Assembly (NCBI GenBank): GCA_016840125.1
Contig: JAEOSY010000376.1
Span: 1 to 19,108 of the forward strand
Origin: Candidatus Helarchaeota archaeon
Lineage (GTDB): Archaea > Asgardarchaeota > Lokiarchaeia > Helarchaeales > HEL-GB-A
Reading direction: 5' to 3'
DNA: 19,108 bases
The notes below the pieces were generated by a model, which saw nothing but the letters and a program-made list of their open reading frames with translations, was not told where the DNA came from and ran no database searches. Numbering within the stretch: the first letter of the stretch is position 1; each line of letters starts with the position of its first letter. A program made the position numbers and the translations under genes. Positions 1,994 to 18,746 of this stretch are shown piece after piece.

Positions 1994-3298
1994 CTATCCA
2001 GCAACTTCTTTCATTGCTTCTTCCAGAATTGAAATGCCTCTGTCGAGTTGTTCATCGGTTATTACCAGGGGCATAAGAGTTCGGATTACATTTCCAAAGT
2101 TACCGCAGGAAAGCAGAATCAGTCCCTTTTCATAGCACCGTTGCACCAATGCTTTGGCCTCTTCAACAGCTGGCTCTTTTGTTTCCCGGTCACGAACAAG
2201 CTCAAGAGCCAACATGGCTCCCTTACCCCTAACGTCTCCAACGATTTCAATCTCCTTCTTTAGGCCTTCGAAACGGGGTAATAAATTTTTGCCCAGTTCA
2301 ACTGAGCGGTCCAAAAGTCCATCCTCTAAGAGGATTTCCATTACAGCAAGTGCTGCGCGACACGAGACGGGATTCCCTCCAAAGGTGCTGCCAAGGCCCC
2401 CGGCATGGACAGCATTCATTAACGTCGATCGGCCAGTAATAGAAGAAAGAGGCATTCCACCCGCAAAGCCTTTTGCCATTGTAATGATATCTGGAGCAAT
2501 GCCCCAGTGTTCGATTGCAAATAATTTGCCGGTACGTCCAGCACCCGACTGAACTTCATCGATAATGAGTGTAATATCATACTTTTCACAGATTTTTTTT
2601 AGCTTCGGAAAATACTCCGGGGGTGGTGTAATAAAGCCTCCCTCGCCCTGGATCGGTTCGGCTATGACAGCTGCCGTATCCTCAGGAGCGACATTAGAAA
2701 TGAAATATTCTTCCAAATAATCCGCGCAAGCTATATTACATTTGGGATATTCTAATCCAAAGGTACAGCGGTAGCAGTATGCAAATGGCATTCGGTAAAT
2801 TTCAGGTACAAAAGGAGCAAAACCTTTTTTATACGGCATAACCTTGCTAGTTAGGCTCATACCCATATACGTACGCCCATGAAAGGCATTTTCGAAACAA
2901 ATTATAGCTGGACGTTGCGTCGCATATCGGGCCACTTTAATTGCGTTTTCGACAGCCTCTGCCCCGCTGTTTGCAAACATGGTCATCTTATCAAAGTCGC
3001 CAGGAGCCATTTGGTTCAGAATAGCTGCAAGGTTAACATATGCATCGTACATGGTAACGTGAAAACATGAGTGGATACATTTCTCTGCTTGGTTTTGGAT
3101 GGCTTTAACCACTTTGGGATGGCAGTGCCCCACGTTATTGACACCGATGCCGCCAGCAAAATCTATAAGTTCACGACCTTCTACATCAGTAATGATCGCA
3201 CCGTGTGCTTCCTCTATAAACGCTGGGGTCACACTATAAGGCCCCTGGGGAACATGCTGGTGCCGCATTTGTCGGAGCTCTTCACTATTTTTAGACAT
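1994..3298 (-). CDS. Class-III pyridoxal-phosphate omega-aminotransferase (GabT-like)
   Basis: Fold-type I PLP aminotransferase (434 residues, full length) of the 4-aminobutyrate/omega-amino acid group. It would move a terminal amino group to an oxo acid and leave an aldehyde. Visible motifs are SGAEAVENA (111-119) for phosphate binding, the Asp in IIDEVQ (D247), and the Schiff-base lysine K276 in TMAKGFAGG. A four-cysteine segment, YCYRC to KCNIAC (C175, C178, C187, C191), resembles that seen in GabT-like enzymes of anaerobes and archaea. GGAGG precedes the ATG by 12 bases. It is the first gene behind a sigma-54 promoter (3390-3405, minus strand) and is followed by an AOR, which suggests an amine to aldehyde to acid route. 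The exact amine (GABA, beta-alanine, taurine or other) cannot be read from sequence. Confidence 0.92.
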   Translation of the reverse strand: MSKNSEELRQMRHQHVPQGPYSVTPAFIEEAHGAIITDVEGRELIDFAGGIGVNNVGHCHPKVVKAIQNQAEKCIHSCFHVTMYDAYVNLAAILNQMAPGDFDKMTMFANSGAEAVENAIKVARYATQRPAIICFENAFHGRTYMGMSLTSKVMPYKKGFAPFVPEIYRMPFAYCYRCTFGLEYPKCNIACADYLEEYFISNVAPEDTAAVIAEPIQGEGGFITPPPEYFPKLKKICEKYDITLIIDEVQSGAGRTGKLFAIEHWGIAPDIITMAKGFAGGMPLSSITGRSTLMNAVHAGGLGSTFGGNPVSCRAALAVMEILLEDGLLDRSVELGKNLLPRFEGLKKEIEIVGDVRGKGAMLALELVRDRETKEPAVEEAKALVQRCYEKGLILLSCGNFGNVIRTLMPLVITDEQLDRGISILEEAMKEVAG

Positions 3299-3389: not shown

Positions 3390-3405
3390 AGCAAAAGCTG
3401 TACCA
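3390..3405 (-). promoter_or_regulatory. Sigma-54 (-24/-12) promoter for the aminotransferase-AOR operon
   Basis: Read on the minus strand this is TGGTACAGCTTTTGCT. It has GG, ten bases, then GC, with the TTGCT -12 half, against the consensus TGGCACG-N4-TTGCW. It lies about 90 bp upstream of the aminotransferase ATG, giving a predicted 5' leader of about 80 nt. The divergent neighbour encodes a sigma-54 activator, which makes the assignment coherent. Confidence 0.72.
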
Positions 3406-3585: not shown

Positions 3586-5397
3586 ATGCCTACTCAAAAA
3601 AAACATACCTCGTTGGTAACACCTGAGCTCGGTGAACTTCTTTTTAAATCACCCAAAGTAGAAGAAGATCAACTAAATTGGAAAATTTTTGGAAAAGCCC
3701 TGCTTAATGCCTCACAAAGTTCAATATTTGTAGTGGATCGCATTGCCACGGTCATTATTTCTAATGAACTGGCTCGGAAGAAGTTAGGTCTATTTCCCGG
3801 TAGCTTATTAACAAGTACTATGTCAAATTTATGGCCGTATATTCAAAAAAACTTTCAGAACAAAAATAATCGAGAAAGTATTTTCATAAAAATCAAAGAA
3901 ACGCCTTATTTAGCCTTATTAACCCCTGTTACTCATAAAGATTCCACTACCGGCATGTTATGTATCCTTGAAGATCATACGGAATTGCATAATGTGACAC
4001 GCAGAATGATCTCCTATCAAGAATTAAGCCAAGAGTTGGATGCACTTGTTGATTTTAGCAGTGACGGTTTATGGATCTGCGATGGAAATGCAAATGTATT
4101 AAAAATTAATAAAGCATCAGAACGTATTAATGATGTTCGATCAGATGATGTTGTAGGAAGCAATATGAGCGATCTGGTGAAAAATGGATTTGTCGACCGA
4201 TCAGTAACTCTAGATGTACTCAAATCACGAAAGTCTAAACACATATTACAGGAAAATCGATCTGGCAGAAAACTCATATTGACTGGAAACCCTGTTTTCA
4301 ACGAAAAAGATGAAATTATTCGTGTTGTGGTAACTGAACGAGATATAACGGAAATTGATAATCTACGTCATAAACTTGAAGAACAGGTGACCATCAAGGA
4401 TCTGATGCGACATCAGATGCTGGAGATGCAGCTGGGTAAGCTAAAATCACAGCAGATCATCGCTCGCAGTCCGGCAATGATCAATGTTTTCAAACAAGCT
4501 TTGAAATTGAGCCAATTTGATACGACTGTTTTAATTTTAGGCGAATCAGGTAGCGGCAAAGGGGTCATCGCCAACCTAATTTACAGACATTCACCCCGTT
4601 CAGATCATCCCATGATTAGAATTAATTGTGGTGCTATTCCAGAAACTCTGGTTGAAACCGAGTTGTTCGGATACGATAAAGGGGCTTTTACTGGCGCCGA
4701 CCGCAAAGGGAAGCCCGGACACCTAGAATTGGCAGACGGTGGAATGATCTTTCTTGATGAGATTGCAGAATTACCCATGCCTTCTCAGGTTAAATTGCTT
4801 AGGTTTTTAGAAAACGGGCGAATTACAAGAGTTGGTAGTACTAAAAGCCGGCAGCTTGATGTACGCATTCTTGGTGCCACCCACCGAAATCTTGAAAGCA
4901 TGGTGAAAGATGGCACCTTCAGGCAGGATCTTTTTTACAGATTGAATGTAGTACCAATTTCCGTGCCACCCTTGCGTGATCGAAAAGAATGTATACTGCC
5001 ATTGATTCAATATTATTTGGAATATTTTGCTTATAAATTGAAACGAAAAAAAAAGCCTCAAATTTCACGAAAAGCAATGAATGCTATGATAACATATAAC
5101 TACCCAGGCAATGTTAGAGAGTTAATGAATCTTTGTGAAAGGCTAGTGGTTATGGCGGAGAAAGGTTGGATAGATCTGAATAATTTACCTACTAATATTA
5201 TATCAATGTCTGATGATTTAGGTAAAGGCTTGATTAGTGATTTAAAAGAAGGTAAGACTCTTGCTCAAATGATCGAAACCGTAGAGCAACGAATATTAGA
5301 AGATGCTAAGCTTAAATATGGAACTCAGAAAAAAATAGCAAAGGCACTAAGTGTAAACCAATCAACTATTGCTCGAAAGCTTAGAAAATATAAATAG
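3586..5397 (+). CDS. Sigma-54-dependent transcriptional activator with PAS sensor domains
   Basis: Bacterial enhancer-binding protein of 603 residues. Its N-terminal half looks like two PAS-type sensor domains (about 35-135 and 148-260; the second has the typical SSDGLWICDGNANVLKIN start and an ERDITEI end). The AAA+ domain follows, with Walker A GESGSGKG (319-326), the sigma-54-contacting GAFTGA loop (366-371) and Walker B IFLDEI (388-393). A TyrR/Fis-type helix-turn-helix (about 575-603, TQKKIAKALSVNQSTIARKL) ends it. There is no receiver domain, so a ligand or redox signal on the PAS modules is more likely than phosphorylation. The Shine-Dalgarno is weak (AGG). The gene lies between the two sigma-54-promoted operons and is flanked by TGCA dyads, so it is very probably the local regulator. 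Confidence 0.95.
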   Translation: MPTQKKHTSLVTPELGELLFKSPKVEEDQLNWKIFGKALLNASQSSIFVVDRIATVIISNELARKKLGLFPGSLLTSTMSNLWPYIQKNFQNKNNRESIFIKIKETPYLALLTPVTHKDSTTGMLCILEDHTELHNVTRRMISYQELSQELDALVDFSSDGLWICDGNANVLKINKASERINDVRSDDVVGSNMSDLVKNGFVDRSVTLDVLKSRKSKHILQENRSGRKLILTGNPVFNEKDEIIRVVVTERDITEIDNLRHKLEEQVTIKDLMRHQMLEMQLGKLKSQQIIARSPAMINVFKQALKLSQFDTTVLILGESGSGKGVIANLIYRHSPRSDHPMIRINCGAIPETLVETELFGYDKGAFTGADRKGKPGHLELADGGMIFLDEIAELPMPSQVKLLRFLENGRITRVGSTKSRQLDVRILGATHRNLESMVKDGTFRQDLFYRLNVVPISVPPLRDRKECILPLIQYYLEYFAYKLKRKKKPQISRKAMNAMITYNYPGNVRELMNLCERLVVMAEKGWIDLNNLPTNIISMSDDLGKGLISDLKEGKTLAQMIETVEQRILEDAKLKYGTQKKIAKALSVNQSTIARKLRKYK

Positions 5398-5863: not shown

Positions 5864-5879
5864 TGGCTTAAATCTTGCA
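5864..5879 (+). promoter_or_regulatory. Sigma-54 (-24/-12) promoter for the activase-permease operon
   Basis: TGGCTTAAATCTTGCA has the TGGC -24 element and TTGCA -12 element with exact GG-N10-GC spacing. It lies 52 bp upstream of the activase ATG, placing the start site near 5890. It is the plus-strand counterpart of the sigma-54 promoter at 3390-3405. Confidence 0.75.
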
Positions 5880-5931
5880 CTTTAGCATAAAGATAATTTT
5901 AACATACTCGCATAAAAGAAAATTCTAAAAT

Positions 5932-6852
5932 ATGGAAGAACGGGACTTATTTGGATTGATCTTTGATATTCAAAAATTCAGTGTACACGATGGACCTGGA
6001 ATAAGAACGCTTGTCTTCTTTAAGGGCTGTCAACTTAATTGCTTGTGGTGCTCAAATCCTGAAGGGCAAAAAGACTATTCACAATTAATGTTATTCCCAG
6101 AGAAATGTATTGGTTGCTTCCATTGTACAGAAGTTTGTCCTACGGGTGCAACATATCTCATAGACAGGGAAATTCAATTTAATAGAGAACTTTGCAACAA
6201 TACCGGTATCTGCACTGATTCTTGTCCGGCAGAAGCGCGAAAGTTGGTTGGTAAACAAATTAGTGTTAATGATTTATTGCAGGAGATTGAAAAGGATAGT
6301 GCTTTTTATAGAAAATCTGGTGGAGGAATTACCTTCGGAGGAGGAGAGCCTTTACTACAATCGAACTTTATCAAGGCTGTATCTATTGAGTGCCAAAAGC
6401 AGGGTTTCAATATAGCATTAGAAACTTGTGGTTATGCACCCTGGAAAAACTTAAAATCAGTTGCTCCTTATATGGATTTAATACTGTTCGACTTAAAACA
6501 CATGGACCCTAAGCTTCACAGGAAATTCTGTGGGTATTCGAATAAGCTGATCCTTGAAAATCTAAAAAAGCTATCGCAATTGAAACCCAAAAAATTAACA
6601 ATAAGAATACCAATTATTCCTAGCTTTAATGATACTGAAGAAAATATCAAACAAACAGCTGATTTTGTAAAATCTCTAAATTCTTCTATATCTCACGTTG
6701 AAACGCTCGCTTATCATAAATACGGCGTTTTAAAATATCAAAGATTAGGTATGAAATACAAGATCGATGAAACAAGGGTGCCTACAAATGAAGATATGGA
6801 TAGAGTGAAGAACATCTTTGAGAAGTATCATATCAAGGTTATAATCGTATAA
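5932..6852 (+). CDS. Glycyl radical enzyme activating enzyme (radical SAM)
   Basis: Radical S-adenosylmethionine enzyme (306 residues) that installs the glycyl radical on its partner GRE. The radical-SAM cluster motif is C33-x3-C37-x2-C40 (GCQLNCLWC), preceded by the family signature FSVHDGPGIRT. A ferredoxin-like insert follows: C59-x2-C62-x2-C65-x3-C69 is a complete [4Fe-4S] set. The second set reads C88-x5-C94-x3-C98, with Thr91 and not Cys at the usual second position. The SAM-binding GGGEP motif follows, within SGGGITFGGGEP. This insert is typical of activases for eliminase or decarboxylase-type GREs and absent from the pyruvate formate-lyase activase. It is the first gene after a sigma-54 promoter. 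Its only visible client is the GRE at 9586, which is unusual in lying 2.7 kb away with transport genes and an IS remnant between. No clear Shine-Dalgarno precedes the ATG. Confidence 0.93.
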   Translation: MEERDLFGLIFDIQKFSVHDGPGIRTLVFFKGCQLNCLWCSNPEGQKDYSQLMLFPEKCIGCFHCTEVCPTGATYLIDREIQFNRELCNNTGICTDSCPAEARKLVGKQISVNDLLQEIEKDSAFYRKSGGGITFGGGEPLLQSNFIKAVSIECQKQGFNIALETCGYAPWKNLKSVAPYMDLILFDLKHMDPKLHRKFCGYSNKLILENLKKLSQLKPKKLTIRIPIIPSFNDTEENIKQTADFVKSLNSSISHVETLAYHKYGVLKYQRLGMKYKIDETRVPTNEDMDRVKNIFEKYHIKVIIV

Positions 6853-6906
6853 CAAACAGATAGCTTTTAATGAGTTGTTTTGGAGAACAAACTTAAGGAG
6901 GTTATC

Positions 6907-8307
6907 ATGACGGCATCAGCTGAAAGTGCAGTAAGGGAAGAGGTTTATAGGAGTAAGCTCCCCGCGTTACCTGAGGACAGAGTTTTTAGCTTAGCGGATC
7001 ATACTTTCACTACAACAGCATGGAGTATCGCAACCTGGTTGTTTGTTATGGGGGCATGGCAAGGTTTTGCGGCTCCATTGCACCTTGCGATTATTGCAAC
7101 GCTTTTTGGATGCACGGTTCCGCTTGTTTTCCAAAGCTTGCTGGGGCGATTTTTCGCAAGATGGGGTGTAGATGTCGCTTTTGGAGCGAGAGCGACTTTT
7201 GGGCCTATAGGGACCAAAGTCATTGTATTGCTATTAGGAGTGTTACCAGCGTGGTGTTGGATTTCAATTCCTGCTGTAATGTTTGGAAGGGCGGTACATA
7301 CAATAGGTGGAATTTACGGCGTAACTGGTTTTATTGTCAATGAATTTTTATGGGGTGTAATTTGTATGTGTGTTGGCCTATTCATTACATACAAAGGACC
7401 AAATTGGATGAAATGGGCTTTTCGTTTTGCAACACCGTTGATGGTAATTCTTATAGTAATGATTACTTGGCGTATGCTTACAAACTGGGGGTTAGGGAAT
7501 CTCTTAGAAATGAAGCCTAAGGGACTAAATCCTGATCCTTACATCAGCTTTATAATTGCTGTTGAAATGGCCTTAGGTTTGGGAGTTTCGTGGCTTTTTC
7601 AGTTCGCCTGCTATGGAAGAATTTGTAAGACTGAATCAGCCGCCTACTATGGAAGTTATATAGGATGGGGTCTATTGTGGGCAATTTTGGCTATACCTGC
7701 TATGTTTGTTGCTCTTGCTGCAGGAGCAGAGGATATCGTAGAAGGGGTAAAACTGATTGGCGGTGGATGGGTTATACTTTACTTGGTTCTGCTTATTATA
7801 GCGAACCCATCATCCTTAGCTACAAATGGCTATCTTATCGGACTTACCTTGCGTAATTTTTTCCCCAAATTGAAGTGGATTTATGCAGTAAGTGTAAGTT
7901 TTGTGGTCTTGATATTGGTTGCAATTCCTTGGGCTTATGATGCTTTTGGGAGTTTTATAGTGACACTAGCATCTGTCACAATGGCATTCGCAGGCGTATG
8001 GGTTACCGATATATTGTTGCGCCAATCGAATGTAAGCCTAAGAGATCTTTACGATGAAAGTCCTCAAGGTGGATATTATTATTGGATGGGGATAAATTGG
8101 TTTGCACTTATCTCAGCAGCAGCTGGCGCATTAGTTGCATTTATTATATGGAACCCAATGGCTCAACAAATTCATTTGGTTGGTGTTTTCAAAATTTTTG
8201 GTGCTTCAATACCAGCGGCAGTATCGGCTGCTATAGTATATTATATATGTGCTAAAGTCTATCTAATGCCTAATAAAATAGGCCATCCAGATATACCTTG
8301 GAAATAA
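6907..8307 (+). CDS. NCS1-family (cytosine/purine/hydantoin-type) permease
   Basis: Integral membrane carrier of the nucleobase:cation symporter-1 family, which takes up nucleobases, hydantoins, allantoin and related compounds, usually with H+ or Na+. About 12 hydrophobic segments are visible. The N-terminal region matches the family, with conserved ATWLFVMGAWQG in the first span and GARATFGPIG in the unwound-helix region. The start is set at ATG 6907 (466 residues) because AAGGAGG at 6895-6901 is ideally placed for it; an upstream in-frame TTG (6880) would put that site inside the gene. It lies 54 bp after the activase and 60 bp before a small membrane protein. The context suggests it imports the GRE pathway substrate, but the substrate cannot be deduced. 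Confidence 0.88.
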   Translation: MTASAESAVREEVYRSKLPALPEDRVFSLADHTFTTTAWSIATWLFVMGAWQGFAAPLHLAIIATLFGCTVPLVFQSLLGRFFARWGVDVAFGARATFGPIGTKVIVLLLGVLPAWCWISIPAVMFGRAVHTIGGIYGVTGFIVNEFLWGVICMCVGLFITYKGPNWMKWAFRFATPLMVILIVMITWRMLTNWGLGNLLEMKPKGLNPDPYISFIIAVEMALGLGVSWLFQFACYGRICKTESAAYYGSYIGWGLLWAILAIPAMFVALAAGAEDIVEGVKLIGGGWVILYLVLLIIANPSSLATNGYLIGLTLRNFFPKLKWIYAVSVSFVVLILVAIPWAYDAFGSFIVTLASVTMAFAGVWVTDILLRQSNVSLRDLYDESPQGGYYYWMGINWFALISAAAGALVAFIIWNPMAQQIHLVGVFKIFGASIPAAVSAAIVYYICAKVYLMPNKIGHPDIPWK

Positions 8308-8367
8308 AGTTAAAAAACGATTTGCAATCTTAAATATTTATAGAATTAATTAATGGGAGGACGAAAA

Positions 8368-8568
8368 ATGGATAGTACTGATAAAACATTTGACGAGGAG
8401 TTGGAACGAAGATTGGATATATACTATGATTATAAGCCAGGGAGCCCGGAATGCCCCATAAAACCTTTGACACTAAAAGGTTTAATGCCGGCTATAATCA
8501 TAGCTGTGCTACTTACACTTTATCAAATATACGGAATGATCGGTTTCTCATCGCTGTATCCTAACTAA
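8368..8568 (+). CDS. Small single-span membrane protein, possible permease partner
   Basis: A 66-residue protein that I do not recognise. An acidic, tyrosine-rich N-terminus (about 1-35, including YYDYKPGSPECPIKP) is followed by one strong transmembrane helix (about 40-60, LMPAIIIAVLLTLYQIYGMIGF) and a short tail. GGGAGG (8355-8360) sits seven bases before ATG 8368, which decides this start over the in-frame ATG at 8353. It closely follows the NCS1 permease in the same operon. Small helical partners are known for several secondary carriers of other families, so a permease accessory role is reasonable but inferred. Confidence 0.7.
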   Translation: MDSTDKTFDEELERRLDIYYDYKPGSPECPIKPLTLKGLMPAIIIAVLLTLYQIYGMIGFSSLYPN

Positions 8569-8600
8569 TATATCGAGAAGAACGGGATAAAAAGTAAAGG

Positions 8601-8623
8601 AGCCACCGGCTTCGCCGGTGGCT
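8601..8623. terminator. Strong GC-rich hairpin; IS200-type right end and/or terminator
   Basis: Perfect 10-base arms AGCCACCGGC / GCCGGTGGCT around a TTC loop. It starts 32 bp after the small membrane protein gene and may end the activase-permease transcript, although only a short T run follows. Its position directly beyond the decayed minus-strand transposase, and its look, also fit the subterminal hairpin at the right end of an IS200/IS605 element. Both roles can coexist. Confidence 0.6.
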
Positions 8624-8727
8624 TTGAGAACCAGACAGTACAAACGGGGAATCATGTTAGGGGCTACCAGTGTAGCCGGGGTGCGCAGCCTGGCGCTCTT
8701 AGATGTTTTGTCTCTCGATGTAGCACC

Positions 8728-9062
8728 CTATGCTGTTTCGTTTGCACAGATTGTACTTACAGGGTACACACGGATCCAGAAACCTCAACCCAGTGCTCTG
8801 TATAAACTGCCGGAACATGCTTGAATAGCTGTATCGTCACCCGACCCTTGATCATACAAATGATTTCGCTTACAGCGTGTTGGGGGAATGGAAAGCGACA
8901 GGTGTACATGATATTTGGTACATGACCCCCTATTACCCTAACCATTTTCCATTAAGCGATTTTGCGAGTCCAACCTATAGACTTCTGACCGATTCTGCCG
9001 AGCATTACCCTGAAAGGGAACTTCGGACAGAACACAGCATGATAATTGCATACATATTTCAT
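8728..9062 (-). pseudogene. tnpA: Decayed IS200/IS605-family TnpA (HUH, Y1 transposase)
   Basis: Reading the minus strand from ATG 9062 gives an eroded IS200-type transposase. It starts MKYVCNYHAVFCPKFPFRVM, like the family's YHxVFCPKYRRxVL opening. An in-frame stop interrupts it around residue 37, and it resumes as VIGGHVPNIMYT, then AVSEIICMIKGR, TIQLFKHVP and EHW. A shift of frame then gives RVYPVSTICANET, matching the family RGYFVSTVG region, before a stop at 8728. The usual HUH motif (HxMPDHVH) has lost its histidines, so the enzyme is dead. Normal family length is about 140-150 residues. The hairpin at 8601-8623 would be the element's right end. I recognised this by eye from family motifs. 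Confidence 0.72.
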
Positions 9063-9075
9063 ATATGGTAAGTGT

Positions 9076-9204
9076 TTATATGTATCCCAATTGCATCTCC
9101 TTACCAATTCTAATTAGCCTGGCAAGCGCCCTGGCATTTAGACTGTACTCGTTTTCATATTCAGCATCGCTGATGTACCCAGTCTCGCAAAGCTGGAGGG
9201 TTTT
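9076..9204 (-). pseudogene. Possible C-terminal scrap of a four-helix-bundle (23S IVP-like) protein
   Basis: The minus strand is open for about 42 codons here and ends in TAA at 9078-9076. It reads LQLCETGYISDAEYENEY and then an alanine/arginine-rich helix. This resembles the C-terminal helix of four-helix-bundle proteins (LGYIS-x-EEY pattern). There is a stop immediately upstream and no start codon, so it is at best a fragment. It adjoins the transposase remnant. This could be chance. Confidence 0.25.
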
Positions 9205-9230
9205 TCAATAGCTAATATAAATTGAAAAAC
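9200..9230. repeat. Perfect 10-base inverted repeat
   Basis: GTTTTTCAAT (9200-9209) and ATTGAAAAAC (9221-9230) are perfect arms with an 11-base spacer. The transcribed hairpin would be AT-rich and weak. It marks the point where the gap changes from mixed composition to AT-rich GRE leader. It could be a bidirectional terminator, an operator or an old element end. Confidence 0.4.
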
Positions 9231-9585
9231 GAATCAATTCAAACAATAAGATGATATAGGATTGCTTTCCCCATTTCTGACCACTTGTGCTTATTTGCAT
9301 TCATTTAGAAAGTTGGGATCCTAAATCATACAGTTAATATTCTATTTGTTATAGCATTTAAGTTAGATCAAACAGTATCTATAGTCATGGATTAGCGCTT
9401 TTTTATTAAATGGCACCAGTATCTCGTTCTTTTGGCGAGAGAAGGATTAACTGCTTTGTGAAACAACCAATCACATATAAAAAGTGGTGAGCAACATTAT
9501 TTTGGATACCAACGAAACTAACAATTAACAATTAATAGCTTGAAAAGTTCGACAGTTAGTAAAAATAATTGCGAAGGAGAAAGAA

Positions 9586-12108
9586 ATGAAAACATCAGGA
9601 AAAATGCAAATTCAAAATCTAAGCAAATGGAAAGAAAAAACATGCGCAAATATAGATGATTTAGACGTTGATGAACTGCCAATACCGCTGCAAGCCGTAG
9701 ACAGTGAGTATGTAGAAAAAAGAGGTTGTACACAGAGAATAGAACGTTTGCGAGAGCAGTATTTCAAAAACAAACCAACAGTCTGTATTCATAGGCCCCG
9801 AGTTTATACACAGGTTTTTAAGGCAACTGAAGGAGAGGCAATGTGTATAAGGAGAGCCAAAGCATTTAAAAAATTATGTGAAGAAAAACCCATTATTATT
9901 CAGGATGATGAGCTCATAGTCGGTAGTCCTGGTTGTGGGCCAAAGTACGTAAATTTGTGTCCTGATCAAGAGTGGCATTGGATCGAGGAAGAACTTGAGA
10001 CTATGACATTGAGAAACCAAGACCCATATATTATTACCGAAGCTCAGAAAAAAGAATTAAGGGAAGAAATAATACCATACTGGAAAGGAAAATCTGTTTA
10101 CGACTACTGTCTATCACATTTACCGGAAGAAACAAAACGTCTCACTTTTAGAACCGGTATAATAGATAATGAAGTCAAGCAATGTAGCGCACTTGGACAT
10201 AGTGTGCCAGGTTGGCAATATACTATTTTACCGAAGGGTCTTAAGGGAATGATGGAATCCATTCATGAAACGTTAGCAAATCTATCATATCGAAACCCAG
10301 AAGACCACGAAAAGATTGAGTACCTTAATTCCATGCTCATTTGTTTAGACGGCATGAAAATATTGGCAGAAAGACATGCCCAAGAAGCACGGAGCATGGC
10401 AGAAAACGAAAGTAATGCTACAAGGAAAAAAGAATTAATCGAAATTGCCGAAATATTCGATTATGTTCCCTTTAATCCTGCAAGAACTTTTAGAGAGGCT
10501 GCACAAGCGATTTGGCTCGGACAAGTAGGCGTTTACATGGAACTCAACGGACCCTCCCTGGGGTTAGGCCGTTTCGATCAGATCATGTTTCCATATTATG
10601 AAAAGGACTTGAAAGAAGGCATAATGACCAAAGATGCAGCCCTGGAAATTATGGAATGCCTTTGGATGAAACAAGCAGAAATAATATGGCTGCTTAATGA
10701 GGATGCTTCACATTTTTTTGGAGGATATCAACTTTTCTTAAGTTGTAACATGGGTGGCTTAAAAAGAGATGGAAGCGATGCGACCAATGATTTAAGCTAT
10801 TTGTCCATGAAGGCCACAAGGGATCTTAAATTGCACTCACCTTCGTTAGTTGCTCGAGTAAACGAAAAGAGCCCTGAAAAATATTTGATGGATATAGCGA
10901 AAACGATTCGCGAGGGGATAGGATACCCCCAAGTTCATAATGATGAAGTAGGTGTTAAGTGTATGTTATCAATGGGCGTACCAATTGAAGATGCCTACGA
11001 TTATGATGTTTCAGGGTGCACTGAGATACAGATACAAGGCAAAATGTGGAAGTATTCTGATGCTGGCCAGTTCAATATGGGATGTTGCGTTGAGTTCGCC
11101 TTAAATGATGGTTGGTCAAGGATGTTACCTAGTGATAAGCGGTGGGGATTACCAACCGGAAACCCAAGAAATTTTAAAAGCTATGAAGAAATTGAAGAAG
11201 CAGTAAAAAAACAAATTGCATATCTAACAGAACATTTATTGATTTGTAATATGGTTTCAGAGAGGGCACATAAAGAGCGATTTCCTTATCCGTTTACCTC
11301 TAGTCTTATGGTGGGACCTACTGAGACTGGCATAGATTTTTATCAGGGCGGCGCTATTTATAATGTCGGTCCATCTCCGTCCTACATCGGCTTAGCAAAT
11401 GTTGCAAATAGCTTAGCCGCAATAAAAAAGCTTATATTTGATGATAAAGAAATAACGTTAGATGATCTAATAGATGCACTCGACAATGATTTTAAGGGGC
11501 AGAAAGGAGAGGAATTACGACAGCTGCTATTGAATCGTGGAGCTAAATATGGACGGGATGATCCTTATGTTGACGAGATAGCTAAAAGAATTGCTGATTT
11601 TTGTTCAAAAACAGCATATGAATTTAAAAGTATAAGGAATTGTCGATCAGTTTCTGCAATGTATCCTGTAGCGGCTAATACACCATTGGGAATGGTAGTT
11701 GGCGCTTTGCCATCGGGAAGAAAAGCAGGGATGCCCTTAGCGGATGGGATTTCTCCCGAACAAGGAACTGATGGATCACCAACCGAGGTAATCAAGTCAG
11801 TAACATCTTGGGACCATGCTAGACACCCAAATGGTACTTTATTGAATATGAAGTTCAATCCATCACTGCTTAAAAATGATGACGGTTTGCGAAATATGGT
11901 TTCTCTCATTAGAACTTTTCAAGATTTGGGTGGCTGGCATGTCCAGTTTAATGTGATAAGCGCTGAGACGTTAAAAGATGCACAAAATGAACCAAAAAAA
12001 TACCCTGATTTGATGGTGAGAGTAGCTGGATATAGCGCATATTGGAACGACCTAGCAAAAGAAACCCAAGACGATATTATATCACGTACAGAGCATTTAA
12101 CTTTTTAA
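9586..12108 (+). CDS. Glycyl radical enzyme (eliminase/decarboxylase-type), new or unassigned class
   Basis: Cytoplasmic oxygen-sensitive enzyme (840 residues) of the pyruvate formate-lyase superfamily. The glycyl radical sits at G815 in VRVAGYSAYW near the C-terminus; the thiyl radical cysteine is C478 in DVSGCTEIQ, with E480 two residues on. The single Cys-x-Glu pair excludes pyruvate formate-lyase (adjacent Cys-Cys) and groups it with dehydratases, C-N and C-S lyases and arylacetate decarboxylases. Other family landmarks are IIPYWKGKS, ALGHSVPGW, GLGRFDQIMFPYY and GYPQVHNDEV. Differences from the classes I know are Thr-Glu-Ile after the Cys, where diol dehydratase/choline lyase types have Val-Glu-Pro, and Trp for Phe after GYSAY. 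There is no N-terminal extension for a microcompartment. AAGGAGA precedes the ATG by five bases. It is followed by an SDR and an AOR, implying an aldehyde or ketone product. The substrate is unknown. Confidence 0.94.
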   Translation: MKTSGKMQIQNLSKWKEKTCANIDDLDVDELPIPLQAVDSEYVEKRGCTQRIERLREQYFKNKPTVCIHRPRVYTQVFKATEGEAMCIRRAKAFKKLCEEKPIIIQDDELIVGSPGCGPKYVNLCPDQEWHWIEEELETMTLRNQDPYIITEAQKKELREEIIPYWKGKSVYDYCLSHLPEETKRLTFRTGIIDNEVKQCSALGHSVPGWQYTILPKGLKGMMESIHETLANLSYRNPEDHEKIEYLNSMLICLDGMKILAERHAQEARSMAENESNATRKKELIEIAEIFDYVPFNPARTFREAAQAIWLGQVGVYMELNGPSLGLGRFDQIMFPYYEKDLKEGIMTKDAALEIMECLWMKQAEIIWLLNEDASHFFGGYQLFLSCNMGGLKRDGSDATNDLSYLSMKATRDLKLHSPSLVARVNEKSPEKYLMDIAKTIREGIGYPQVHNDEVGVKCMLSMGVPIEDAYDYDVSGCTEIQIQGKMWKYSDAGQFNMGCCVEFALNDGWSRMLPSDKRWGLPTGNPRNFKSYEEIEEAVKKQIAYLTEHLLICNMVSERAHKERFPYPFTSSLMVGPTETGIDFYQGGAIYNVGPSPSYIGLANVANSLAAIKKLIFDDKEITLDDLIDALDNDFKGQKGEELRQLLLNRGAKYGRDDPYVDEIAKRIADFCSKTAYEFKSIRNCRSVSAMYPVAANTPLGMVVGALPSGRKAGMPLADGISPEQGTDGSPTEVIKSVTSWDHARHPNGTLLNMKFNPSLLKNDDGLRNMVSLIRTFQDLGGWHVQFNVISAETLKDAQNEPKKYPDLMVRVAGYSAYWNDLAKETQDDIISRTEHLTF

Positions 12109-12171
12109 TGTAATTAACGCAGAAGACATCTCTTTGGATTTAAACTTTTTATAAAATAAGGAGAAGGAAAA

Positions 12172-12972
12172 ATGAAATTTGAAGGGAAAGTTGCGATTAT
12201 AACAGGTGCAGCTAGAGGTATGGGTTATTCTCATTGCTTATCTTTTGCTAAAGAAGGCGCAGATATTGCAGCAGTTGACATTTGTGAAAATATTGATGGG
12301 ATATATGAGTTATCAAGTGATTTAAAAAACGTAATTAGCGAAGTTGAAAGTATTGGGAGAAAAGCAATTGGAGTAAAATGTGACGTGAGAAATGCTAATG
12401 AAGTAAAGAGTATGGTGGATAAAGTAATAAGTGAATTTGGAAGGATTGATATATTGGTAAATAATGCCGGCATAGAGGCTTTCAATTACACATGGGAGAT
12501 CCCAGAAGAAGAGTGGGACAAGGTAGTTGATGTGGATCTAAAAGGAGTTTTTTTATGTTGTAAATATGTTGTGCCAAAGATGATTGAGAAAAAAAGTGGT
12601 AAAATTGTTAATATATCTTCAATTTATGGTTCTCAAGCGGCAGGTATGGTCTCGCATTATTGCGCTGCAAAATTTGGAGTTGTTGGTTTTACTCAATCTC
12701 TTGCACAAGAGGTTGCAGAACATAATATCAATGTAAATGCCGTCGGTCCCGGTTTTATAAACACTGCCATGGCTGATGCTGAGGCTCCTATTTTTGCCCC
12801 ACTCATGGGCCTCTCTCCTGATACATACTATGAAGAAGCAGTAAAACAAGTAAGCCTTTTCGGTCGAGAAATTACTCCTCAAGATATATCGAATGCCGTT
12901 ATCTGGCTTTCCTCGGAAGAGAGTCGCAATGTTACCGGACAATTCATACTGGTTGACGGGGGGCATGTATAA
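12172..12972 (+). CDS. NAD-dependent short-chain dehydrogenase/reductase
   Basis: Classical SDR (266 residues). The nucleotide-binding TGAARGMG is at 11-18, Asp36 at the end of the second strand favours NAD(H) over NADP(H), NNAG is at 97-100, and the catalytic S150, Y163 and K167 (YCAAK) are present. The usual structural Asn before LKGVF reads Asp122, a variation seen elsewhere in the family. A longer than usual loop (ICENIDGIYELSSD) follows Asp36, like that of carveol-dehydrogenase/mycofactocin-type SDRs, which bind NAD tightly. AAGGAGAAGG precedes the ATG. It lies 63 bp after the GRE, so it probably oxidises the alcohol substrate or reduces a carbonyl product of the GRE step. Specificity is unknown. 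Confidence 0.92.
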   Translation: MKFEGKVAIITGAARGMGYSHCLSFAKEGADIAAVDICENIDGIYELSSDLKNVISEVESIGRKAIGVKCDVRNANEVKSMVDKVISEFGRIDILVNNAGIEAFNYTWEIPEEEWDKVVDVDLKGVFLCCKYVVPKMIEKKSGKIVNISSIYGSQAAGMVSHYCAAKFGVVGFTQSLAQEVAEHNINVNAVGPGFINTAMADAEAPIFAPLMGLSPDTYYEEAVKQVSLFGREITPQDISNAVIWLSSEESRNVTGQFILVDGGHV

Positions 12973-13131
12973 TAGCTTATACTTCAGCTACCGATGCACG
13001 AATATGGATAAGACTATGGCACCCCTTCAAGGTAGGATTTAAGTCACAATTTAGATCTGGATTACTTTCTATTGGCCACTAAGCATATTGAAAATATTTT
13101 CTGTCGAATGAAAAATTAAAGGAGGTGGCAA

Positions 13132-15018
13132 ATGCTTAACGGTTATAACGGAAAAATATTACTTGTAAATTTAAGCGATGGCTCCGTAAAGACTGAAAAT
13201 TTAATAGAAGAAGTATATCGAAACTTTATAGGAGGACAAGGATTAGGAGTTAGGATTCTTTATGAAAAAATGAAAAAAGGCGCTGATCCAATGGGTCCTG
13301 ATAATATATTAGGTTTTGTAACAGGGTTATTAACAGGGTCTGCACTGCATGGTGCACGATTTACTGTAGTTTCTAAATCTCCTGTTTCAGGTGGATGGGG
13401 TGACAGTAATTGTGGGGGGAGTTTTGCATATGAGTTAAAGGCCGCCGGTTTTGATGGAGTTTTCTTTACCGGTATTTCCTCAAAGCCAGTTTACCTGTAT
13501 TTAAATGAGGGCAAAGCCGAGCTGAAAGATGCCAGTCACTTGTGGGGAAAAGATACAGTAGCAACTGATGAAAGCATCAAAAGTGAACTTGATGATAAAA
13601 AGATAAGAATTGCTTGCATAGGTCCTGTTGGAGAAGCCAAATTACGTTCAGCTGCGATCATGCATGAAGGGTCAGCAGCAGCAAGAGGCGGACTCGGAGC
13701 AGTGATGGGGTCAAAGCTCCTTAAGGCTATAGCTGTCAGGGGTACTCAAAAAATAAAGATGGATGATTCCGATCTGTTTTCTAAATTACGCAAGGAGTAT
13801 CTCTCTGATGTTAAGGTTTCTAAAAATCCTTGGGTGCCATTCTTTAAAAATTGGGGTACGCCTGCCTTTTTTGAGGGTTACCTTACTGCTGGAGACACTC
13901 CCATAAAAAATTGGACACTTTTTGGAGAAGAAGGATTTCCAAATTGGTCAAAGTTGCATGGTGACTCAATCACAAAATACCAAACTAAGAAGCGTGCATG
14001 TAGGGGGTGTCCGCTTGCCTGTAAAGGAAGCCTCAAAATTGAAAAAGGTAAATATGCAGTAGAAAAAACAGATAAAGTTGAATATGAAACATTGGGAATG
14101 CTTGGCTCTAATCTTCTTGTTGATAACGCAGAGGCCGTAATTAAAGCTAATGATATCTGTAATCGTTATGGCATTGATACTATTGCAGTTGGTAGTTCGA
14201 TCGGGCTGGCTATGGAATGTTATGAACGTGGCCTAATAACCAAAAAAGATACAGATGGAATTGATCTTGTATGGGGTAATGCAGACGCAATGGTTGCATT
14301 GGTCGAAAAGATAGCTAGAAGAGATGGATTTGGAGCTAAATTAGCAGAGGGTAGTCAGCTTGCTGCTAAACGCATTGGTAAGGGAGCTGAGAAATTCGCG
14401 GTACACGTTGGGGGTCAAGACCTTCCTGCTCATGATGCTAGAACCAGTGTTGGCCATGGTTGGGGCTATATTGTTGATCCTACTCCAGGCCGACACACTG
14501 CGACAACATTTAAAGACAGTCAGGAAGAGGGGCAGGAATGGTATGAAGGTTTAAAGTATGGCTTGTCGGATGATTTAAATTTTCCAAAAATAGACAAACT
14601 TGATCCTGAGGCCAATTCTGAAATATTTGCTATATGTAGTGACGCAGATCGTTTGTGGACATCAGCTGGGCTATGTTGGTTTGCTTTATATCCAGAAGGA
14701 CTTCCACTCGTTGAGGCGATAAGGGCAATAACTGGTTGGGATTTTACACTTGCTGAGGGATTAAAGACGGGTCGAAGAATTCAAACTTTGCGTCAGGCAT
14801 TTAATATACGTGAAGGTGTAAAACCTCACGAGTGGCACATTCCTGAAAGAATGGATGCAGCACCAGAAACAGGGCCGATAAAAGGTCGAAAAATTGATTT
14901 CAAACAAATGAAAAAGGTCGGTTATGCCTCATTAGGATGGGATGCCGATTCAGGCGTGCCATTAAAATCAACCTTAGAGGAGCTTGGATTAATAGAGTTA
15001 GTTGGTGATATTGGATAG
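13132..15018 (+). CDS. aor: Aldehyde:ferredoxin oxidoreductase, AOR family (copy 2, divergent)
   Basis: Tungsten-pterin oxidoreductase (628 residues). It has the family start NGYNGKILLVNLS, the pterin-binding AARGGLGAVMGSK (183-195), and [4Fe-4S] ligands C290, C293 and C297 (ACRGCPLAC) with C515 (AGLCWF). H455 in PGRHTATTF is in the substrate region. It is about 40 residues longer than the copy at 108-1874, and its motifs differ at many positions (AARGG against SGRTG; CRGCPLAC against CRTCFLAC), so this is a different subfamily and not a recent duplicate. The Shine-Dalgarno GGAGGTGG is strong. Its place behind the GRE and SDR suggests it oxidises the aldehyde made there and supplies reduced ferredoxin. 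A 159 bp gap before it shows no clear promoter. Confidence 0.94.
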   Translation: MLNGYNGKILLVNLSDGSVKTENLIEEVYRNFIGGQGLGVRILYEKMKKGADPMGPDNILGFVTGLLTGSALHGARFTVVSKSPVSGGWGDSNCGGSFAYELKAAGFDGVFFTGISSKPVYLYLNEGKAELKDASHLWGKDTVATDESIKSELDDKKIRIACIGPVGEAKLRSAAIMHEGSAAARGGLGAVMGSKLLKAIAVRGTQKIKMDDSDLFSKLRKEYLSDVKVSKNPWVPFFKNWGTPAFFEGYLTAGDTPIKNWTLFGEEGFPNWSKLHGDSITKYQTKKRACRGCPLACKGSLKIEKGKYAVEKTDKVEYETLGMLGSNLLVDNAEAVIKANDICNRYGIDTIAVGSSIGLAMECYERGLITKKDTDGIDLVWGNADAMVALVEKIARRDGFGAKLAEGSQLAAKRIGKGAEKFAVHVGGQDLPAHDARTSVGHGWGYIVDPTPGRHTATTFKDSQEEGQEWYEGLKYGLSDDLNFPKIDKLDPEANSEIFAICSDADRLWTSAGLCWFALYPEGLPLVEAIRAITGWDFTLAEGLKTGRRIQTLRQAFNIREGVKPHEWHIPERMDAAPETGPIKGRKIDFKQMKKVGYASLGWDADSGVPLKSTLEELGLIELVGDIG

Positions 15019-15197
15019 TGCTAGTTATTTAATACTTCGATAAAAAGGATTTAAAGCATTTACCGATGGTAGTTGAATATATGGATTTTGGCATTAGGAG
15101 TGTATGTAATCTTTCATTATATGAATTAATCTTGGAAGCAAAGAATATCGATAGAAATATTAGGTAAAAATTTAAAAACTAAAACCTGGAGGTTAAA

Positions 15198-15662
15198 ATG
15201 GCGCTTAAGTTAATTAGCCCATCATTTAAAGATGGGGATGGGATACCAACTAAATTTACATGTGAAGGAGATGATGTGTCTCCCCCACTAAAATGGGAGA
15301 ACTCACCTATAGGTACAAAATCTTTTGTTGTTATTCTTGAAGATCCAGAAGATACTACTGCCCCTGGAGGTATTTTTCTGCATTGGACCATATTTAATAT
15401 CCCTTCCGATACTATGGAATTAGCAGAAAATGTCTCAGCAACTAGTCAAATGCCGAAAAATGTAAAAGAGGGTAAGAATGATTTTGGAAAGATTGGCTAC
15501 GGCGGACCCTGTCCAGATGGTAGTGGGAAACATAAATATCGATTCACTCTTTATTCAATAGACATAAAGTTATCTTTAGAAACGGGGATTTCAAAGGAAC
15601 AATTGTTAAATAGTATAAAAGGGCATATAATTGAACAAGCTGAGCTTAGGGGCCTTTATTAG
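15198..15662 (+). CDS. YbhB/YbcL (PEBP) family protein
   Basis: Small soluble protein (154 residues, normal length) of the phosphatidylethanolamine-binding/Raf-kinase-inhibitor fold. Family signatures are CEGDDVSPPLKW near the start, ILEDPEDTTAPGGIFLHWTIFNIP (conserved DPxD...HW ligand pocket, residues about 46-70) and the YGGPCPDGSGKHKYRFTLY block, matching the family's YxGPCPPxGxHxYxFxLY. No signal peptide, so cytoplasmic. GGAGG precedes the ATG by five bases. Bacterial members have no firm enzymatic role; they bind small anions or phosphate-like ligands. Its presence between the AOR and FdhD hints at a ligand-handling role in this pathway, but this is inference. Confidence 0.93.
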   Translation: MALKLISPSFKDGDGIPTKFTCEGDDVSPPLKWENSPIGTKSFVVILEDPEDTTAPGGIFLHWTIFNIPSDTMELAENVSATSQMPKNVKEGKNDFGKIGYGGPCPDGSGKHKYRFTLYSIDIKLSLETGISKEQLLNSIKGHIIEQAELRGLY

Positions 15663-15929
15663 AGGTTTTTAAATAATTTGAGGCAAAATTATAACTAATT
15701 TAAAAATTACGATATAATCCAAAATTAATTACCATTCTGGAATGATCCCCTAAAACTGCACAAAAAAATCAAGTGTTATCAGATTGCCCCGAGACTGAAC
15801 ATACTTGTTACTCTTCTGATTTTGATAGATTTAGGATGCGTAAACTGTTTTGGTTGAGTTAAGCGAGTAATAGGCTTCCAAGTCTACAATAAAAAGCAGG
15901 CCAGATATATATTATTTGAAGTATGATTT

Positions 15930-16784
15930 GTGGTGTCAAAAAAAGAGTCTCACCTGATTAGGGTCTATCGGACAATGCAAACGAATAAGAATACTAAAAA
16001 ATATCAAGTTACAATAGAAAAAGGCACAAAGAGAAAAATTGATAATCAAGAATTGATCGTTGAAGAACCCTTATCGATCCGGGTTGATGGAAAACCCTAT
16101 TCTGTGATCATGCGTACACCCGGTAATGAAATACATCATGCTGCAGGGTTTTGTCTTGCCGAAGGCTTGGTTGATAGTCCGGATGATTTTTCTACTATCG
16201 GCTTTTGCACTGAAGAAGGTGTTAATGTTGTAACAGTTAATCTTACTTCTGAAAGGCGGAATACGGTTGAGAAATTGATAAACCGAAGGGGTTTTTTCAG
16301 TCAGACCAGCTGTGGCATATGCGGCAAGGAGCTTTTATCCGACATGAGTCAGATCGTCAGACCCCTGGCAAGCGGCATTAATATGACGATTGAAAGGGCT
16401 AAGTTCTGTTTCTCCCAGTTAATTGAGCATCAGGCTCTTTATAAAAAAACATTTGGCTCGCATGCGGCGATGATTTTTGATTCGAATTGTAGGGTAATGT
16501 CTTACGCGGAGGATGTTGGACGCCATAATGCTATGGATAAAGCAGTCGGCAAAGTGCTCATGGACAGAAAAATTGAAGATGCACATATTGTCGTTGTATC
16601 ATCCAGATCGAGTTTTGAGCTTATCCAAAAGGCTGCCAGGGCACAATTGGAGATTATGATTAGCATGTCACGGCCGACTTCACTTGCCTTGGACTTGGCA
16701 AAAAGTCTCAATATGACATTGGTATGTATGAATGAAAAACGTGGGTTTATAACTTATTGTGGTGATGAGCGTTTTCATACCTAG
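15930..16784 (+). CDS. fdhD: FdhD family sulfur carrier for Mo/W-pterin cofactor
   Basis: FdhD accepts sulfur from a cysteine desulfurase and passes it to the metal of bis-pterin enzymes, classically formate dehydrogenase. Visible motifs are EEPLSIRVDG, the active CxxC at C128/C131 (TSCGICGKE), EDVGRHNAMDK, and the SMSRPTSLALDLA region. Length is typical. The start is uncertain: GTG 15930 gives 284 residues, but neither it nor ATG 15975 (269 residues, close to the family norm) has a clear Shine-Dalgarno. No formate dehydrogenase is in the window; the only pterin enzymes nearby are the two AORs. A short hairpin CTCCG/CGGAG (16798-16814) follows the stop and may be a weak terminator. Confidence 0.93.
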   Translation: MVSKKESHLIRVYRTMQTNKNTKKYQVTIEKGTKRKIDNQELIVEEPLSIRVDGKPYSVIMRTPGNEIHHAAGFCLAEGLVDSPDDFSTIGFCTEEGVNVVTVNLTSERRNTVEKLINRRGFFSQTSCGICGKELLSDMSQIVRPLASGINMTIERAKFCFSQLIEHQALYKKTFGSHAAMIFDSNCRVMSYAEDVGRHNAMDKAVGKVLMDRKIEDAHIVVVSSRSSFELIQKAARAQLEIMISMSRPTSLALDLAKSLNMTLVCMNEKRGFITYCGDERFHT

Positions 16785-17927: not shown

Positions 17928-18746
17928 ATGACTCCAGATAAGGGAACACAGATCATCGACAAGGCTAAGGAAATGAGGGCTTCAATGGCGGGCATCGCGA
18001 ACGTTGAGCTCCTCAAGAACTCACCTTCCCATGCAATTATAAAACAACTTGGCATGGAAATAGATAGGAGTAATCCTTACAATGGGATATGCGATTTCGA
18101 CAAAATCAGGTGGCCTGCAAAAGCCAAGTCAGCGCTGGTTATCGCGGTTTCTCATCCCAAAGACAAACCAGAGTTCGACTGGTGGACTGGATTGAAAGGA
18201 ACCCCTGGAAACAGTGAGTTGATAAGAATTAACAAGGAATTGTCTGCATGGATTGAAGAGATCCTTAACATCAAAACCCACAAATTACCCTATTTCATTC
18301 AAACAGGCGGGATATACCTCAAAGATGCAGCGGTATTGGCCGGACTTGGTTGTATTGGTAAAAACAACATGCTTGTAACTCCAGAATTTGGACCGAAGAT
18401 TCGTCTTCGAGCATTGCTTCTTGAGGAAGACTTAACTCCCACAGGTCCCGTTGACTTTGATCCGTGTAACGACTGTGAAGAATATTGCATCAAAGCGTGC
18501 CCTCAGAATGCCTATGGAAAGATTGTTATCTCATCTTCTGAAACTGGGCAGGTCAACCTTCCCGGACGTGATGGTTGTTTCAGCAGGGCTAAATGCATGA
18601 TCCAGATGGATAAAAATTGCGAAAAAGCAGGAATTGATATAAATGAAACAACGAAATCCGCTATAGACATAGGGGACATAGAAAAAGCGAAGCGTTATAT
18701 TAAATACTGTCGGCGGTGTGAGTTTGCTTGCCCCATTGGAAATTGA
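17928..18746 (+). CDS. QueG-like double [4Fe-4S] protein (epoxyqueuosine reductase-related)
   Basis: 272-residue soluble iron-sulfur protein related to epoxyqueuosine reductase and the iron-sulfur half of reductive dehalogenases. The conserved core GIYLKDAAVLAGLGCIGKNNMLVTP (about 128-152) matches the family's cobalamin-side motif (AGLG-x-IGKN). Cluster ligands are C180, C183, C187 and C191 (CNDCEEYCIKACP) and C261, C264 and C268 (CRRCEFACP), with further cysteines at 217, 223 and 231. It is shorter than true QueG (over 300 residues) and lacks the C-terminal HEAT region, so a tRNA role is doubtful. AAAAAGGG lies before the ATG. It is separated from the GRE cluster by over 1 kb of decayed DNA and may be unrelated to it. 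Confidence 0.82.
   Translation: MTPDKGTQIIDKAKEMRASMAGIANVELLKNSPSHAIIKQLGMEIDRSNPYNGICDFDKIRWPAKAKSALVIAVSHPKDKPEFDWWTGLKGTPGNSELIRINKELSAWIEEILNIKTHKLPYFIQTGGIYLKDAAVLAGLGCIGKNNMLVTPEFGPKIRLRALLLEEDLTPTGPVDFDPCNDCEEYCIKACPQNAYGKIVISSSETGQVNLPGRDGCFSRAKCMIQMDKNCEKAGIDINETTKSAIDIGDIEKAKRYIKYCRRCEFACPIGN

Follow-up and report, generated by a model that had tools for sequence, protein, structure and literature searches.

Glycyl radical enzyme locus

The window analyzed here, a contig of 19,108 nucleotides from Candidatus Helarchaeota archaeon (JAEOSY010000376.1), appears from its sequence to hold an intact glycyl radical enzyme (GRE) locus of an uncharacterized class. Its plus strand carries, in order, a radical SAM glycyl-radical activating enzyme (activase; 5932–6852), an NCS1-type permease (6907–8307), an open reading frame (ORF) for a 66-amino acid protein (8368–8568), the GRE (9586–12108), a short-chain dehydrogenase/reductase (SDR; 12172–12972), an aldehyde:ferredoxin oxidoreductase (AOR2; 13132–15018), a YbhB/PEBP-like protein (15198–15662), and an FdhD sulfurtransferase (15930–16784). 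Apart from the small ORF, these genes had been named in a preliminary description of the same DNA; all seven are open plus-strand frames, and Pfam and NCBIfam profiles bear out their families. The range given there opens at 5864, exactly where a −24/−12 (sigma-54) match begins. Absent from that finding were the 66-amino acid ORF, the sigma-54-type sites, a 1,017-base stretch before the GRE, a second oxidoreductase (AOR1), an aminotransferase, and a PAS sigma-54 activator.

The GRE contains the motifs GCTE (residues 477–480) and RVAGY (812–816), with Cys478, Glu480, and Gly815 present, and its predicted structure is confident (pLDDT 93.8, pTM 0.93). It exceeds the cutoff of the PFL2-3/eliminase-type subfamily (TIGR01774, 681.8 versus 678.2 bits), and the thiyl cysteine, the glutamate two residues on, and the glycyl-radical motif are all in place. 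It passes none of the NCBIfam equivalogs listed: it scores 750.3 bits against a cutoff of 1050 for CutC (TIGR04394; a true CutC, L098, scores 1660), and is at least 344 bits short of each of the HpsG/HpfG, HypD, indoleacetate decarboxylase, and hydroxyphenylacetate decarboxylase models. Its identity to the solved GREs among the matches listed does not exceed 41%. The GRE therefore does not cluster tightly with a biochemically characterized class, and the proposal that it lies outside these classes stands. According to the accessible part of an earlier network study, characterized functions separate at about 60% identity (PMC6453916), a threshold of which the window GRE, at 37–39%, falls short for glycerol and propanediol dehydratases. 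Known GRE classes were surveyed through the accessible parts of PMC11574389 and PMC11528403; the limonene GRE, as described in the accessible part of PMC12583861, is of the succinate-synthase type and unrelated.

In a tree of 89 rows, taken from the best 120 of 1,407 database matches together with fetched loci and built by a quick method (with a long-branch warning elsewhere in the tree), the window GRE and P0002–P0037 form a clade of 37 (SH-aLRT 100, stem 0.40). Clade members P0015 and P0029 exceed the PFL2-3 cutoff and P0031 does not (657.1 versus 678.2 bits); all three miss the equivalogs shown. In genome collections no GRE was more than 45% identical. Of 97 loci taken from them, 80 were retained, and these reach at most 39% over the best segment. 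The closest GREs in two overlapping samples were 44% identical (395 genomes of the phylum of the Desulfobacterales genome G001) and 45% identical (389 genomes of its class). No closer relative was found in the order of G154 (8 genomes) or in the order (6) and class (23) of G359, and no GRE at E≤1e-200 in 400 genomes of the phylum of a Leptolinea genome, a search that had no positive control. A search of viral contigs returned only L094 (IMG/VR), in which phage-like structural frames adjoin a GRE activase and a fragment from the C-terminal end of a GRE; it was set aside as probably an assembly chimera.

Residues of the GRE pocket were compared with those of CutC (38–41% identical to the window GRE), whose numbering was mapped through L098, across 26 of the 37 clade rows and 28 other rows. 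At the position of CutC Asp216, every clade row compared except P0011 (asparagine) has histidine, 25 of 26 in all; none of the 28 other rows does, and these have glutamate, aspartate, glutamine, or threonine. Asp216, Tyr208, and Tyr506 are replaced in the window GRE by His205, Val197, and Gln495, and its pocket is therefore not that of a choline lyase. Quantum mechanics/molecular mechanics work, in its accessible part, credits CutC Asp216 and Glu491 with holding choline (PMC12451663). Phe395, Phe389, the thiyl cysteine, and the base glutamate of CutC are kept in the window GRE, and both phenylalanines vary within the clade. The N-methyl-cis-4-hydroxyproline dehydratases 8iof and 8id1 are 38–39% identical to the window GRE; in 8id1, a glutamate lies opposite His205.

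The activase, the only GRE activase among the window proteins scanned, scores 364.3 bits with TIGR02494 (cutoff 174.35) and has Cys33, Cys37, and Cys40 along with seven auxiliary-cluster cysteines. Its second auxiliary cluster motif retains only Cys88, Cys94, and Cys98, which gives seven of the eight cysteines described as widely conserved in the accessible part of PMC6453916.

The NCS1 permease, its small neighbor, and related loci

The permease frame opens at 6880; the better start is the ATG at 6907, which is preceded by aaggaggt. The protein exceeds the PF02133 gathering score (54.8 versus 23.5) and misses the NCS1 nucleobase symporter model TIGR00800 (53.9 versus 353.1). Its close family is small (14 proteins, window copy included, at E≤1e-3 among the best 7,999 candidates scored), and viral contigs gave no match to it. 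In an alignment to Mhp1 of only 56 bits, Trp117 and Asn318 of the hydantoin site are kept as Trp127 and Asn316, whereas Gln121 lies opposite Pro131. Ala309, Ser312, and Thr313, which we take to form the Na2 site of Mhp1, lie opposite Ala308, Ser311, and Ser312. Roles of the Mhp1 hydantoin-site residues are given in the accessible part of PMC4195764. Unlike Mhp1, the window permease has an additional small ORF beside it.

The 66-amino acid protein has a single hydrophobic, candidate transmembrane stretch (mean of 2.04 in its best 19 residues) and matches no Pfam or NCBIfam model. The one homolog found, of 74 residues, is in genome G1002 (36% identity over 59 residues, E 7e-12) and shares the motif IYYD[YF]xPG; a wider-pattern scan of the fetched loci returned only that copy. 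There (L116), the small ORF is followed by an NCS1 permease (42% identical) and then by an AOR2 ortholog, all directly adjoining. Since the AOR2 ortholog there adjoins homologs of the other two, we regard NCS1, small ORF, and AOR2 as a conserved unit, and the earlier suggestion that the permease is associated with an AOR gains a second genome. Judged by sequence and position, the 66-amino acid protein is probably a partner of the importer. A conserved small partner would be new for the NCS1 family, for which our literature search and the accessible part of the CodB paper (PMC9379551) show none.

G1002 alone among 379 genomes of the G001 class has an AOR2 ortholog at E≤1e-215 (66% identical; at most three candidates were scored in the listed genomes), and it is among the seven of 389 genomes of that class with a GRE at E≤1e-190 (44% identical). 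The contig with this GRE also encodes hydantoinase A/B, a carbon-nitrogen hydrolase, an amidohydrolase, and a polysaccharide deacetylase. Among 12 genomes with related GREs, only G1002 and G283 gave any NCS1 match (E≤1e-6). Within the clade, the P0031 GRE and an AOR2-type protein probably share one 28,400-base contig, judging from their equal size and source. Hydantoinase A/B, MttB, or FAD amine-oxidase-like genes, or by eye ProXVW, are found in some sister-GRE loci.

Two sets of GRE loci were compared: 80 distant ones, some of them short (1.33 Mb in all, with a median of 17 kb), and 12 closer or CutC loci (L095–L099 and L108–L114, 7 to 20 kb each). In the distant set, the AOR, hydantoinase, MttB, and NCS1 queries gave no match at E≤1e-6. 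Among the 12, an AOR was found in L095, L108, and L114, and an SDR in L095, L109, and L114. AORs are common in some of the genomes concerned (17 first-look candidates in G1002), so a few matches near GREs are expected by chance.

In locus L121 (contig C59 of G1002), a distant NCS1 has an AOR nearby, as well as what by eye are a ferredoxin, a ThiS-like protein, and an FAD enzyme; from this locus, NCS1-AOR pairing may be wider than in the window. In L114 (genome G1096), a GRE like the N-methyl-hydroxyproline dehydratase group occurs with two MttB methyltransferases, a corrinoid protein, the AOR, two SDRs, a binding-protein-type permease, and an enolase-superfamily gene, a candidate hydroxyproline-betaine pathway.

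Oxidoreductases, aminotransferase, and regulatory elements

AOR1 (108–1874, minus strand) and AOR2 both have AFOR_N and AFOR_C domains and a CX2CX3C motif (C288-x2-C-x3-C in AOR1); AOR2 matches PF02730 and PF01314 and scores 354.7 bits with 1aor_A. Tungsten aldehyde:ferredoxin oxidoreductases share these domains and this motif, and the window differs in having two copies flanking a GRE. Both AORs miss the NCBIfam equivalogs PRK09849 and GAPOR_Arch; the best relative of AOR2 (86% identical) is labeled Thermodesulfobacteriota by its source, a match that on its own might place the host among the Desulfobacterota. The class III omega-aminotransferase beside AOR1 (1994–3298, minus strand) is of the GABA-transaminase type (TIGR00700, 529.9 versus 506.65 bits), with GabT proteins as its best solved relatives, and misses the PRK GABA-transaminase models shown. 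The SDR is nearest to mycofactocin-coupled and carveol dehydrogenase subfamilies, at scores below their cutoffs. FdhD exceeds the cutoff of TIGR00129 (164.4 versus 140.9 bits) and misses PRK00724. FdhD and the YbhB/PEBP-like protein, the latter recognized by profile matches, are tied to the unit by strand and gaps only, and their membership is uncertain. In agreement with the preliminary description, the scan of the window proteins turned up no sulfite gene, no CoA-acylating aldehyde dehydrogenase, and no microcompartment.

The PAS sigma-54 activator (3586–5397, plus strand; nearest PrdR, below cutoff) lies between the divergent units. Matches to TGGYNYN5TTGCW occur upstream of the aminotransferase-AOR1 pair (3390–3405, minus strand) and of the activase (5864–5879, plus strand); a third, inside the NCS1 gene, is probably due to chance. 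These three matches compare with 0.39 expected in the 19 kb, a count reached by 1 of 200 shuffles. A looser exact form gave four matches (as many in 26 of 200 shuffles), and the first-look form, with up to two mismatches, gave 16 versus 9.65 expected (16 reached by 4 of 200).

The 1,017 bases that separate the small ORF from the GRE (8569–9585, no strand assigned) contain no intact gene and have broken frames, as in non-coding or eroded DNA. A GC-rich hairpin at 8601–8623 lies within a 152-base fold of z −3.1, equaled in stability by 2 of 200 shuffles. Scans of the window for terminators (9 versus 7.9) and sigma-70 sites (38 versus 38.2) did not exceed shuffles, so the evidence for the hairpin is its fold energy; Rfam gave no match. 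A minus-strand frame in this stretch ends in LCETGYISDAEYENEYSLNARALARLIRIGKEMQLGYI, which we take for the tail end of proteins of the four-helix-bundle (23S rRNA intervening-sequence) kind. The stretch may have been inserted later, or the GRE half may be served by a separate promoter.

Proposed pathway and alternatives

We give an even chance to the window encoding a sigma-54-controlled catabolic island, in which a small hydroxylated, probably nitrogen-containing compound is imported by NCS1, undergoes elimination by the GRE, and is oxidized by AOR. Direct support comes from the genes, the catalytic residues located by motif and alignment, the promoter matches, the clade, and the adjacency of NCS1, small ORF, and AOR2 in a second genome. 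From these we infer a hydroxyl leaving group, the substrate class, the order of steps, the regulation, and the joining of GRE and permease in one pathway. The PAS activator would switch on the aminotransferase-AOR1 unit leftward and, rightward, activase-NCS1-small ORF and, further on, GRE-SDR-AOR2. NCS1, probably with its 66-amino acid partner, would take up the compound. The activase would install a radical on Gly815, from which it would move to Cys478; the GRE, using Glu480 as base, would then abstract hydrogen from the carbinol carbon, and the neighboring hydroxyl (less likely an amine) would leave to yield an aldehyde or ketone. AOR2 would convert the aldehyde to an acid with reduction of ferredoxin, the omega-aminotransferase would turn the amino end into a second aldehyde as the substrate of AOR1, and the SDR would adjust an alcohol.

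That the substrate contains nitrogen, as the preliminary description proposed, is plausible; the aminotransferase behind a matching promoter, the hydantoinase, MttB, amine-oxidase-like, and ProXVW genes of sister loci, and the partly kept Mhp1 site would lean this way. A narrower version is a long shot: NCS1 and a dedicated single-pass subunit would feed a new class of GRE dehydratase with an amino-diol-like compound (for example, of the 3-amino-1,2-propanediol type), from which the GRE would form an omega-aminoaldehyde, AOR2 an omega-amino acid, the GABA-type transaminase a semialdehyde, and AOR1 a diacid. Both of its oxidations would reduce ferredoxin, and neither CoA nor a microcompartment would be involved; the route is a guess, one that accommodates the two AORs and the single omega-aminotransferase.

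Several observations weigh against the island. The SDR was matched in four of the 80 distant loci (L042, L071, L072, and L075), and a conserved SDR-GRE link was dropped as the L109 SDR is only 36% identical to that of the window, an ordinary level for SDRs. The preliminary grouping of GRE, permease, and AOR held only in part among homologous loci: AOR recurs in three of the 12 closer loci and in none of the 80 distant ones, and NCS1 in none of the 92 (0 of 12 and 0 of 80). NCS1 was also absent at E≤1e-20 from 375 genomes of the phylum, with no positive control among them, and the G1002 GRE is on a different contig from NCS1-small ORF-AOR2. The strict −24/−12 pattern was tightened following a first look. 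The eroded 1,017 bases and the stable hairpin separate the activase-NCS1 half from the GRE half. Histidine at the Asp216 site, Asp492 (Cys+14), Tyr693, and Val695 presumably resemble the pocket of glycerol dehydratase, whose residue numbers our literature search did not find.

GRE and permease may belong to separate units, and activase-NCS1-small ORF and GRE-SDR-AOR2 could be two adjoining pathways, the NCS1-AOR2 link reflecting a GRE-independent route. The hairpin and eroded DNA fit such a division, as do L116, where NCS1-small ORF-AOR2 has no GRE within the 16 kb fetched, and a second G1002 NCS1 homolog (23% identical) with an AOR and no GRE within 19 kb. We nevertheless consider it unlikely: the activase sits with NCS1 and the GRE with AOR2, the GRE requires an activase, and all five of GRE, activase, NCS1, small ORF, and AOR2 have a homolog in G1002. 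The position of the activase on the permease side of the eroded stretch argues for one unit.

A plain vicinal-diol dehydratase acting on a nitrogen-free, glycerol- or propanediol-like substrate would suit the predicted GRE fold, which is next to those of glycerol and propanediol dehydratases, and the presumably glycerol-dehydratase-like residues at the Asp216 and Cys+14 sites. It is quite improbable, as the B12-independent enzymes are only 37–39% identical and have different gene neighbors, the window proteins scanned include neither microcompartment nor CoA-acylating aldehyde dehydrogenase, and NCS1 and the omega-aminotransferase would be left unexplained. Equally doubtful is a CutC-like C-N lyase whose substrate would be a methylated or quaternary amine. 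Among solved enzymes CutC comes nearest, and MttB with a corrinoid protein, or by eye ProXVW, occurs in some sister-GRE loci; the three pocket replacements and the 300 bits missing to the TIGR04394 cutoff stand against it, and the CutC system differs from the window, which has AORs and, among the proteins scanned, lacks both a shell gene and a CoA-acylating aldehyde dehydrogenase.

A new class of GRE eliminase with ferredoxin-linked aldehyde oxidation is a good candidate for this locus. GREs enable anaerobes to cleave the bonds of carbon to nitrogen, oxygen, and sulfur, and for many of those abundant in the gut no function is known (PMC11574389, accessible part). The pairing of a GRE with aldehyde:ferredoxin oxidoreductases, if true, would be another way of saving energy from an aldehyde, and the pocket signature, nearby activase, candidate importer, and omega-aminotransferase cut the list of compounds for assay to tens. 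Literature searches on GREs with AOR, GREs with AOR and NCS1, recent GRE work, GRE networks, hydroxyproline-betaine GREs, glycerol dehydratase residues, and small NCS1 subunits showed nothing on this locus among the results listed, subscription papers being mostly outside their coverage. Further along the window (17928–18746), a 272-amino acid protein without a Pfam match has a CX2CX3CX3CP motif and by eye resembles epoxyqueuosine-reductase-type iron-sulfur proteins.
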